This document shows positions 13,122-44,742 of a DNA stretch of 47,211 bases, one piece after another. The stretch's first letter is position 1; each line of letters starts with the position of its first letter. The notes below the pieces were generated by a model that was not told where the DNA came from, did no database searches, and saw nothing but the letters and a program-made list of their open reading frames with translations. This stretch comes from Candidatus Gastranaerophilales bacterium (lineage in GTDB: Bacteria; Cyanobacteriota; Vampirovibrionia; Gastranaerophilales; Gastranaerophilaceae). The position numbers were made by a program, and so were the translations under genes. The stretch is taken from contig CALVAS010000005.1 in assembly GCA_944325585.1 (NCBI GenBank), positions 1 to 47,211 on the forward strand. Direction: 5' to 3'.

Positions 13122-13159
13122 AACTAACGCCGGAGTTTTGTAAAACTCCGGCGTTAGTT
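13122..13159 (+). terminator. recA terminator hairpin
   Basis: Eighteen-base arms (13122-13139 and 13142-13159) are perfectly complementary around a two-base loop. It sits 17 bases after the recA stop. The T-run after it is short, but the stem is strong. Confidence 0.8.
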
Positions 13160-13261
13160 TATCGAAAATGATAAGATATATTAAGATTGACGAATAATTG
13201 TAGCAAAAAAAATTCTTTCGGGCTTTAATATGAATACTTGATTTGATAAACGGAGGCAATA

Positions 13262-14245
13262 ATGCAAGTAAATTCAATAAATGCCTATAGAACTACCCCT
13301 TTACACTTTCAGGGCAAAGATAATAAGAGTAACGGGCTTAAAAATGCGGCAAAAGCTACAATTTTAGCAACTGCATTGACGGCTGCAGCACCAATGTATC
13401 AAAGCTGTGATAAATTGACAGGTGATTTTGTACACAATCATTATCTAAAATTGCCGACAGACACTTTCACAAAGGAAGAGCTTGTGCCGACACCTGTTCC
13501 GCCGCAGATAATTTTTATTGAAAAAGAAGTCCCGGGAAAAACAGATACAGTTATAAAGCGTGATACAACCTACCTGCCAGGTGATACAATCTATAAAAAT
13601 GACACAACAATTATAGAAAAACCGCCTGTCATTATACATGATACGCTTCGTATACCGGGGGATACGGTATTCATAAAAGATGAGTGGGATTCAGATGTTC
13701 CGCCAAAGCAGGAAGAAATTTATGAAGATTTGGGAATTATACCGAACGGAGACGGAAAATTCTTCATATCAGAATCTTATTATGATGAAAAGAACAATCA
13801 GTTTGTCCAAAGACATCTTCACGGACAGGGAAGTTCCCGTGACGGAAAAATTCTTGTCTATAACATAATTAAAACAACATGGGATGATGAAGCTGAAGGT
13901 GTTGTTTTAGGTAAAAACGAAGAGTTTGAAAAACAACTTGTTTATTTGTCAGAAGACGGCAATGACCTTGGTATTAAGATTATGAAACCAAAAGTTGATA
14001 TAGGTGTTTCCAATAACAACCAGCAGTCCAACTGGCAGGTATTTGAAACAGGTACATTGTCAACCCCTGATGCATGGCAAGACGGTGAATCCTTCTTTAT
14101 GCAAAATCATGGCGGAGTAGTTGACATGACCAACGGTTTTAAGTTACAACAAGGAAAGACAGATCAATCGGTTACAACGATAAATCCATACGACAGCGAA
14201 TGGGAATTAACCGATTGGAATGTCATAAAAGGAGATCCTGATTAA
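13262..14245 (+). CDS. Lineage-type hypothetical protein with N-terminal FQGK motif
   Basis: The 327-residue protein is of unknown function. The first 20 residues hold the motif INAYRTTPLHFQGK (F16-Q-G-K19), comparable to the start of the protein at 44020-44742. A hydrophobic alanine-rich segment (29-45) is followed by QSCDK, so it could be an internal membrane anchor or a late signal sequence. Residues 80-140 contain degenerate repeats: VPGKTDTVIKRDTTYLPGDT, then IPGDTVFIKDEW. The C-terminal half, about 150-327, is acidic and rich in aromatic residues, probably a beta domain. GGAGG precedes the ATG. Own terminator. Probably surface-exposed or exported (inference). Confidence 0.7.
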   Translation: MQVNSINAYRTTPLHFQGKDNKSNGLKNAAKATILATALTAAAPMYQSCDKLTGDFVHNHYLKLPTDTFTKEELVPTPVPPQIIFIEKEVPGKTDTVIKRDTTYLPGDTIYKNDTTIIEKPPVIIHDTLRIPGDTVFIKDEWDSDVPPKQEEIYEDLGIIPNGDGKFFISESYYDEKNNQFVQRHLHGQGSSRDGKILVYNIIKTTWDDEAEGVVLGKNEEFEKQLVYLSEDGNDLGIKIMKPKVDIGVSNNNQQSNWQVFETGTLSTPDAWQDGESFFMQNHGGVVDMTNGFKLQQGKTDQSVTTINPYDSEWELTDWNVIKGDPD

Positions 14246-41134: not shown

Positions 41135-41710
41135 TCAGGAAATGCGGTTCATTTTCTTTGCAATTTCGGAGTGGATTCGGTTTGCGCGGTACAAATATGC
41201 CGTAAGTTTTTCATAATTGGCTTTTGTTTCGCCGTATGGAACCTTCATTTGTATAAGTTCGTCAACGTTTTCGTTAATGCTTTCAAGCGTGTCCAGCGAC
41301 TCGCTCAAGTCCGCAATTGATTTGAATTTTTTGGAAATTTTTGCAAAAAGTTTTCTTGAAATAAATCTTTGAATCCGTATTATTACCGGAAGTTTCTTCT
41401 TGACTTTAGGCTTTTGTGTTTTTAAGCGCATTTTAAAATTCTTTTTAGCAAACTCTTCTTTCAATTCTTTAATTTCGTTTTCAAGATGTTTTGCCTGAAG
41501 TTTTAGTTCCATAACATCCAGAAGTTTGCCTAAAAGTTCGCGTCCTTTAATTTTTTCGTTAAGTTTTTCAAGCGCTTCTTCTTTTTCATTTATCAAAATT
41601 TCAAGACGCAAAGATTCGTCATCCACTTCCTTTAAAGTTTTGTCATTGAGGATGTTCAAATCATAATCGTTTAGTCTTTTGAAATTGCCTGAAAAGAAGT
41701 TTTCGTTCAT
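41135..41710 (-). CDS. Coiled-coil protein of unknown function
   Basis: The 191-residue protein is highly charged. Residues about 25-95 form a coiled coil (ESLRLEILINEKEEALEKLN...ENEIKELKEEF). A very basic central part (KTQKPKVKKKLPVIIRIQRF, then ISRKLF) and a second helical region follow. No signal peptide or membrane helix. I do not recognise it. It follows the LptF/G-type permease gene after 42 bases and is probably co-transcribed. The basic patch may contact nucleic acid or the membrane. Confidence 0.65.
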   Translation of the reverse strand: MNENFFSGNFKRLNDYDLNILNDKTLKEVDDESLRLEILINEKEEALEKLNEKIKGRELLGKLLDVMELKLQAKHLENEIKELKEEFAKKNFKMRLKTQKPKVKKKLPVIIRIQRFISRKLFAKISKKFKSIADLSESLDTLESINENVDELIQMKVPYGETKANYEKLTAYLYRANRIHSEIAKKMNRIS

Positions 41711-43864: not shown

Positions 43865-44019
43865 ATTATTCTCCTATTTATTTAATCTGAATTTTAGCAC
43901 AAATGTTTGTTACATAATGTAAAATTAAAGGATGATATGTTTTGATAAAATGCAAAAAAAATGTATTTCAGTTTTAATATTGAACATAACGGATTAAGAA
44001 ATCAGAAAGGTCATTGTAT

Positions 44020-44742
44020 ATGAGAATCAGCCCTATTACACCAAAATATAATTATTCAATTTCTAAACAGCCAAATTTCAACGGAGATAAAAAATCAAAT
44101 TACGACAAAAATGAATCTATAAGCAGCGGGCCGAGTCAGAAAACTATTGATTTTATAAAAGCGTTTTCTCGTAATGCAAGATCTCTTGCAAATAACGAAG
44201 TATCAATAAAAGAATATGATTTTCAAACCGGGAACCTTAAACGAAAAACCGTTTACAAAAACGGCAGTACCAATATACATCATATAGACGATTTTGATCC
44301 AAAAACGGGCAATCTTATAAAACATACACTTTACTATAAAGACGGTAAAACAATTTTATCAGAAACGAAATATGACAGAATAACCGGAAATCGTATTAAA
44401 GATATATCTTATAATGTATTATTGGGCGGCTTTGACTTTATTGAAGAATTCAATTCTGAAAATGGACAACGTACAAAGCTTACCTGGTATTACGAAGACG
44501 GCAAAACAATAAAGTTTATCGATAATTATAATCCTGTAACCGGAGATTTTATAAACGGTACAAATTACAGAAAAGATGGAACTCTTAGTTCTTCTTCTGT
44601 AGAATATCCTGATGAAAAAATGAATATTACGACCTACTATGATAATGAAGGCAAGACAATAACATATCTTGAATCTTATGATGAAGTAACTCACACACAT
44701 CAATTCTTTTCACCAGATGACAAGCCCTTAGATATTAAATAA
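44020..44742 (+). CDS. Repeat protein with N-terminal FNGDK motif and TG-x-DGKT repeats (DUF2963-like)
   Basis: From ATG 44020, nine bases after AAAGG, the protein has 240 residues. An in-frame TTG at 44014 is less likely. The N-terminus RISPITPKYNYSISKQPNFN with FNGDK at 20-24 resembles the FQGK start of the protein at 13262. From about residue 68 to 225, six to seven repeats of 22-26 residues follow, consensus Y-(D/N)-x-x-TG-(N/D)-x-I-K-x-T-x-Y-x-x-DGKT-I-x-x-I-x-x. This resembles the DUF2963 repeats known from phytoplasmas. No standard signal peptide. Function unknown. Confidence 0.75.
   Translation: MRISPITPKYNYSISKQPNFNGDKKSNYDKNESISSGPSQKTIDFIKAFSRNARSLANNEVSIKEYDFQTGNLKRKTVYKNGSTNIHHIDDFDPKTGNLIKHTLYYKDGKTILSETKYDRITGNRIKDISYNVLLGGFDFIEEFNSENGQRTKLTWYYEDGKTIKFIDNYNPVTGDFINGTNYRKDGTLSSSSVEYPDEKMNITTYYDNEGKTITYLESYDEVTHTHQFFSPDDKPLDIK

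Follow-up and report, generated by a model that had tools for sequence, protein, structure and literature searches.

Substrates of the type III secretion system (T3SS) of Pseudomonas syringae belong to HrpL/hrp-box regulons, and type V autotransporters carry an extended signal peptide region (ESPR). For the P. syringae T3SS substrates, an aliphatic residue or proline at position 3 or 4, the absence of acidic residues from the first 12 positions and more than 10% serine in the first 50 were reported as characteristic (PMC3338616). Here we analyze a short N-terminal tag of Candidatus Gastranaerophilales proteins, starting from a gene at position 13262 of a contig of 47,211 nucleotides (CALVAS010000005.1; hereafter the window), which is one of 105 contigs of a 1.76-Mb genome assembly (GCA_944325585.1; hereafter G000). 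The tag consists of methionine, usually an aliphatic residue at position 3, and a polar, acid-poor leader of ~5–35 residues, followed by F-x-G or F-G-x. By computation, it is enriched, anchored to protein starts and conserved, and it coincides with an upstream element common to many of the genes. This points to a dedicated protein-targeting signal and gene set, apparently undescribed and possibly serving export; no description of such a tag was found in the part of the literature on secretion in Gastranaerophilales, Melainabacteria and Vampirovibrionia that was covered.

Conservation and distribution of the tag

The open reading frame (ORF) at 13262–14245, downstream of recA, is real and starts with ATG. 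The RecA encoded there shares 95% identity with its counterpart in a named Candidatus Gastranaerophilales genome. The N-terminus of the ORF product, the 13262 protein, reads MQVNSINAYRTTPLHFQGKDNKSNGLKNAAKATILATALTAAAPMYQSCDK; behind the encoded start MQVNSINAYRTTPLHFQGK come a linker and a weakly hydrophobic stretch, then Cys49. The preliminary description of this DNA had pointed out this N-terminus and a similar one at 44020, and the ORF readings confirmed both, the second protein beginning with MRISPITPKYNYSISKQPNFNGDK and its ORF reading MRISPITPKYNYSISKQPNFNGDKKSN. The two loci comprise the following features:

13173–13187, + strand: second conserved upstream block AAGATATATTAAGAT, seen in 13262 orthologs
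13201–13231, + strand: promoter-like element of 13262, TAGCAAAAAAAATTCTTTCGGGCTTTAATAT
13252–13256, + strand: Shine-Dalgarno sequence GGAGG upstream of the 13262 ATG, conserved in same-genus orthologs
13262–14245, + strand: 13262 protein, 327 amino acids, with leader, weakly hydrophobic stretch, Cys49, DT-rich linker and a C-terminal beta domain of unknown fold
13262–13315, + strand: N-terminal tag of 13262, residues 1–18, MQVNSINAYRTTPLHFQG, from reading frame and orthologs
13307–13315, + strand: tag core F16-Q17-G18 (TTT CAG GGC), from ortholog comparison
13346–13408, + strand: Ala-rich hydrophobic stretch with Cys49 (13406–13408), lipobox-like
43950–43980, + strand: promoter-like element of 44020, ATGCAAAAAAAATGTATTTCAGTTTTAATAT
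44020–44742, + strand: 44020 protein, the second tagged protein, 240 amino acids, DUF2963 repeats (1e-31, with this ORF read from 44014)
44020–44085, + strand: N-terminal tag of 44020, MRISPITPKYNYSISKQPNFNG, core F20-N21-G22

A homolog of the 13262 protein is present in 13/13 same-genus relatives, adjoining recA in the loci read, and all 12 same-genus orthologs whose N-terminus was read have kept F-x-G or F-G-x. Both forms are interchangeable even inside the genus (FQG, FEG, FNG, FSG, FGS and FGA), which corrects the ending F-(N/Q/S/T)-G proposed in the preliminary description. Distant homologs (from G014, G029 and a named Gastranaerophilales) also retain F-x-G or F-G-x and a Cys after the hydrophobic stretch. 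The clearest case is an amidohydrolase, in which 22 of the 24 N-termini read have F-x-G or F-G-x immediately before the IIDSHMH start of the domain. Its leaders diverge and the Gly codon changes synonymously, with both Phe codons and all four Gly codons in use. The two amidohydrolases without a tag belong to family f7 of the order; they comprise 279 instead of ~379 amino acids and start at the domain itself (MKIVKKYIDMHVHVG), so that the tag represents an addition to the protein. The third family is an integral membrane protein present in 53/57 relatives; F-x-G or F-G-x is kept in ~20 of its homologs, with F at ~residue 23 to 38 behind diverging leaders; in four further loci our gene caller set the start after the tag region.

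The G000 sample comprised 847 kb (48% of the genome; 20-kb stretches and the window) with 875 genes from a simple gene finder of our own, which also set the gene starts. About 19 of these genes begin with a polar, acid-poor leader closing in F-x-G or F-G-x, giving ~40 tagged genes per genome by extrapolation, as are all tagged-gene counts outside the sample. The list of tagged genes was partly picked by eye, while later tests used fixed rules. The bodies behind the tag are unrelated (EF-hand, weak ankyrin, Amidohydro_2, DUF2963, membrane proteins and many bodies without Pfam match), bearing out the earlier suggestion that the motif occurs on many otherwise unrelated proteins of gut Gastranaerophilales. 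Searching the genome with the 13262 protein retrieved a second protein aligned over the N-terminus only (query residues 6–61), with MKISAVTYQTNPYFAGNDKKPNKLKTAAGAAAIALATAAPMAESEAQ on an EF-hand body. A downstream hydrophobic segment, which the preliminary description had suggested testing for among the motif proteins, turned out not to be a general feature, since a strong segment was found anywhere in only 6/20 tagged candidates. An early hydrophobic segment occurred in 0/20 tagged candidates compared to 188/855 other genes, a difference partly caused by the leader definition. The leaders did not match any of the Pfam and NCBIfam signal-domain models. The HD-GYP protein L033:14539 was removed from the list because its FGQ is not kept in orthologs.

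To assess anchoring at the start, a score was trained on one half of the G000 sample and used to compare called starts with internal Met pseudo-starts of the same proteins; here and below, p-values treat related genes as independent. In the training half, 10/471 starts passed versus 1/2014 pseudo-starts (p=5e-7), and in the held-out half, at a lower threshold, 4/404 versus 2/1806 (p=0.012). The same excess was observed in G007 from the same genus (4/194 versus 3/799, p=0.03) and in other sampled class members, all from families with FlhA (9/1298 versus 11/5012, p=0.012). Other bacteria showed no excess (2/1185 starts versus 6/4457 pseudo-starts). The enrichment among N-termini that the preliminary description had put forward as a check is thus present in the sampled starts.

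Several observations concern related or neighboring sequences. The C-terminal domain and the Cys of 13262 recur in paralogs (L144:862-2238 and other same-genus loci), which have a different leader (MGL.EVSK...), an extra hydrophobic segment and no F-x-G. Several prepilin-like proteins (L005:1775, L010:6064, L226:4452 and others) have unusually long leaders before an FT[LM][AS]EVLIT[LI]GIIG stretch. Directly after recA, a terminator-like inverted repeat (AACGCCGGAGTTTT / AAAACTCCGGCGTT) is located at window positions 13126–13161. A sequence search of PDB with the 13262 protein gave no match, nor did a fold search with its structure model at E<0.001; residues 1–68 of the model are of low confidence.

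The shared upstream element

Tagged genes share the promoter-like upstream element TAGCAAAAA-N(~14)-TTTAATAT. The 7-mer GCAAAAA occurs within 120 nucleotides upstream of 9/19 tagged genes compared to 49/856 other genes (p=7e-7; ~0.001 after correction for 1632 words). An alignment of 13 same-genus 13262 loci, from the window and 12 relatives, showed the element as well as the block AAGATATATTAAGAT conserved in each of them. A promoter model with two blocks at variable spacing was discarded as too lax, and a gapless matrix built from 8 tagged G000 genes was used in its place. Among 915 genes of other Gastranaerophilales, this matrix yielded 10 hits at a score of at least 10, 7 of them tagged versus 16% (p=0.0003), and at a score of at least 12, 5 of 6 hits were tagged (p=0.0007), where tagged means F-x-G or F-G-x within residues 5–50 and no signal-like run. 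Neither 540 genes of other orders of the class, from small samples, nor 1185 genes of other bacteria contained a hit. At the working threshold, strict F-x-G by itself was not significantly enriched among the G000 element hits (4/11 versus 18%, p=0.12); significance came from the leaders of the non-seed hits, which resemble tag leaders in composition (p=0.0005), and from the independent genomes. Of the tagged genes lacking the element, several lie immediately downstream of another gene and may therefore be co-transcribed. Since many tagged genes share the promoter-like element, they appear to form a regulon, and our data indicate that this regulon accompanies the tag in several families of the order.

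Properties of the leader were additionally examined in 23 non-seed genes picked by their upstream DNA alone. Among their products, 16/23 have an aliphatic residue or Pro at position 3 or 4 (versus 44%, p=0.013), 12/23 have I, L or V at position 3 (versus 21%, p=0.001), 14/23 lack acidic residues in positions 2–12 (versus 36%, p=0.012) and 10/23 combine both T3SS patterns (versus 18%, p=0.004). More than 10% Ser in the first 50 residues was weakly enriched (10/23 versus 24%, p=0.03; 7/19 in the tagged set). The tagged set itself has an aliphatic residue or Pro at position 3 or 4 in 16/19 and no early acidic residue in 16/19 proteins, partly as a consequence of selection.

Two further genes were noted in connection with the element. 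A GH77 4-alpha-glucanotransferase (L018:9076-11103, − strand) begins with a leader resembling the tag, MRILPVQNRIYNSPSFQRRP, and carries the shared element at ~−33. At 41135–41710 of the window (− strand), a protein start MNENFFSGNFKRL with GCAAAAAAA 38 nucleotides upstream may belong to the tagged set, with an element score of only 4.7.

A candidate export apparatus and the rival explanations

A full-length FlhA-family protein was found in 57/57 relatives, FliP in 56/57 and FlhB in 29/30. A high-scoring type of FlhA (~860–890 bits) occurs in part of the relatives only and is missing in this genus, whereas a second type (~670–730 bits) occurs throughout the order's relatives searched. G000 encodes the whole export gate in single copy: the second-type FlhA clusters with FliE, FliF and FliH, another cluster contains FliO, FliP, FliQ, FliR and a FliM/N protein, and FlhB is encoded elsewhere. 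The second-type FlhA locus of other families includes rod-like genes; in this genus, at most two weak rod matches were obtained, compared to ~6–9 in most relatives with high-scoring FlhA. Two further G000 proteins (L018:11154-12629 and L225:383-2164, both − strand) contain the FHIPEP C-terminal region of FlhA/SctV without the N-terminal membrane part, the former type having relatives across the order; they could possibly represent soluble docking proteins. Upstream of the FliE–FlhA cluster, L224:624-3937 encodes proteins starting with MGMAASQARYLGLTARKTNVEYEGQQ and neighbors without significant Pfam match, with a related protein in G007; these are possible T3SS substrates.

The start of the 13262 protein would be best explained as a short N-terminal targeting signal fused to otherwise unrelated Gastranaerophilales proteins, the genes of which would be co-regulated as a regulon through the promoter-like element. 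The leader would be read by an export machine, most likely the flagellar-type type III export apparatus that occurs across the order, by analogy with hrp-box genes, the products of which carry N-terminal T3SS signals. Where a hydrophobic stretch follows the tag, as in 13262, it would then anchor or lipidate the product. Targeting of proteins by the tag, its role as an export signal and its reading by a T3SS are inferred. As a whole, an order-wide regulon of targeting-signal proteins with the flagellar-type T3SS as likeliest reader and predicted export of the products is a tentative reading, to which we assign somewhat less than an even chance. The more far-reaching scenario, in which the Gastranaerophilales T3SS, lacking the higher-scoring and presumably flagellar FlhA in this genus, has its own F-x-G-tagged substrate regulon delivered outside the cell into the animal gut, appears unlikely. 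Together, tag and promoter element would allow a set of co-regulated and possibly exported proteins of this largely uncultured gut lineage to be read off the sequence. The potential exports of these bacteria would thereby become open to testing, as would the question of whether the T3SS kept across the order serves in secretion.

Several points weigh against export by a T3SS. The weakest point is that in 13262 the tag is followed by what appears to be a Sec lipoprotein signal, so that a further export signal would be superfluous. One tagged body is a 582-amino-acid protein with four predicted membrane segments, and enzymes are also among the bodies. The T3SS genes checked do not share the element (seven T3SS-locus upstream regions score below 1). 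Families f14 and f12 have FlhA, while small samples of them show no clear tag, so that a link between tag and T3SS in the class is not established. Known T3SS signals lack a strict consensus, whereas the tag has a nearly fixed F-x-G core. The start-test numbers are modest, with several of the proteins being related, and export itself is a prediction. Regarding the earlier proposal of a sorting or secretion tag, conservation and the shared upstream element support a functional tag, and the sorting or secretion role is plausible only.

The strongest rival, which we regard as rather unlikely, is an intracellular docking motif: the leader would stay cytosolic and F-x-G would bind a common partner such as a scaffold, a storage body or an envelope machine. 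The occurrence of the tag on soluble enzymes (the amidohydrolase, and the GH77 glucanotransferase with a related leader) as well as membrane proteins, the co-regulation of tagged genes and the variable distance of F-x-G from the start, as in short linear motifs, are consistent with docking. However, start-anchoring and an acid-poor leader are more typical of targeting signals, and the partner is hypothetical. Cleavage of the leader by a dedicated protease at or near F-x-G, freeing the mature protein, would agree with diverging leaders and an F-x-G that stays beside the domain (FKG-SIIDSH in the amidohydrolase). It is improbable given the long linker behind the tag in 13262 and others; by inspection, no GG, LPXTG, prepilin or other familiar cleavage motif was seen, and no NCBIfam signal model matches.

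Still less probable is an extended n-region of ordinary Sec signals, as in autotransporter extended signal peptides. The hydrophobic region (h-region) and invariant Cys of 13262 and the similar Ala-rich hydrophobic stretch after the tag of L018:2206 would fit, but in most tagged proteins the surroundings of the tag contain no hydrophobic segment. Chance, AT-rich composition or a 5' end spread by recombination is the least credible explanation and very improbable. The plain F-x-G count is raised only mildly (36/448 near the start versus 9–31 in internal windows), which is weak evidence for a tag; the pseudo-start and other-genome controls, the conservation and the matrix hits in other Gastranaerophilales speak against chance. 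Recombinational spread of tag DNA was rejected because the longest identical DNA word common to the tags has 12 nucleotides.

Comparison with known signals and export systems

Like Sec/signal peptidase II (SPII) lipoprotein signal peptides, the 13262 family has an h-region followed by a Cys that is invariant in 20/20 aligned homologs, paralogs without F-x-G included, and is preceded by S, G or A. Compared with the lipobox pattern [LVI][ASTVI][GAS]C after an h-region, positions −3/−2 are canonical only in part (LASC and LAAC versus YQSC and AGSC). The short n-region expected of Sec/SPII signals was not found in this family, as at least 25 polar residues precede the h-region; the polar extension spans 25–60 residues, and most tagged proteins have no lipobox region. 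The earlier statement that the 13262 N-terminus is not a normal signal peptide is half right, as a lipoprotein-like stretch follows the tag. The ESPR of type V autotransporters is likewise a conserved N-terminal extension ahead of a hydrophobic region, but differs in sequence, and the tag described here also occurs on proteins without signal peptide. Flagellar and non-flagellar type III export apparatuses are matched in G000 by the FlhA, FlhB, FliP, FliQ, FliR, FliO, FliE, FliF, FliH and FliM/N families, with the difference that the order-wide FlhA is the lower-scoring type and the higher-scoring type is missing in this genus. The tag resembles T3SS N-terminal signals in that position 3 or 4 is aliphatic, the first 12 residues are poor in acidic ones, the leader is polar and placed on unrelated bodies, a promoter element is shared and an export gate is encoded in the same genome.
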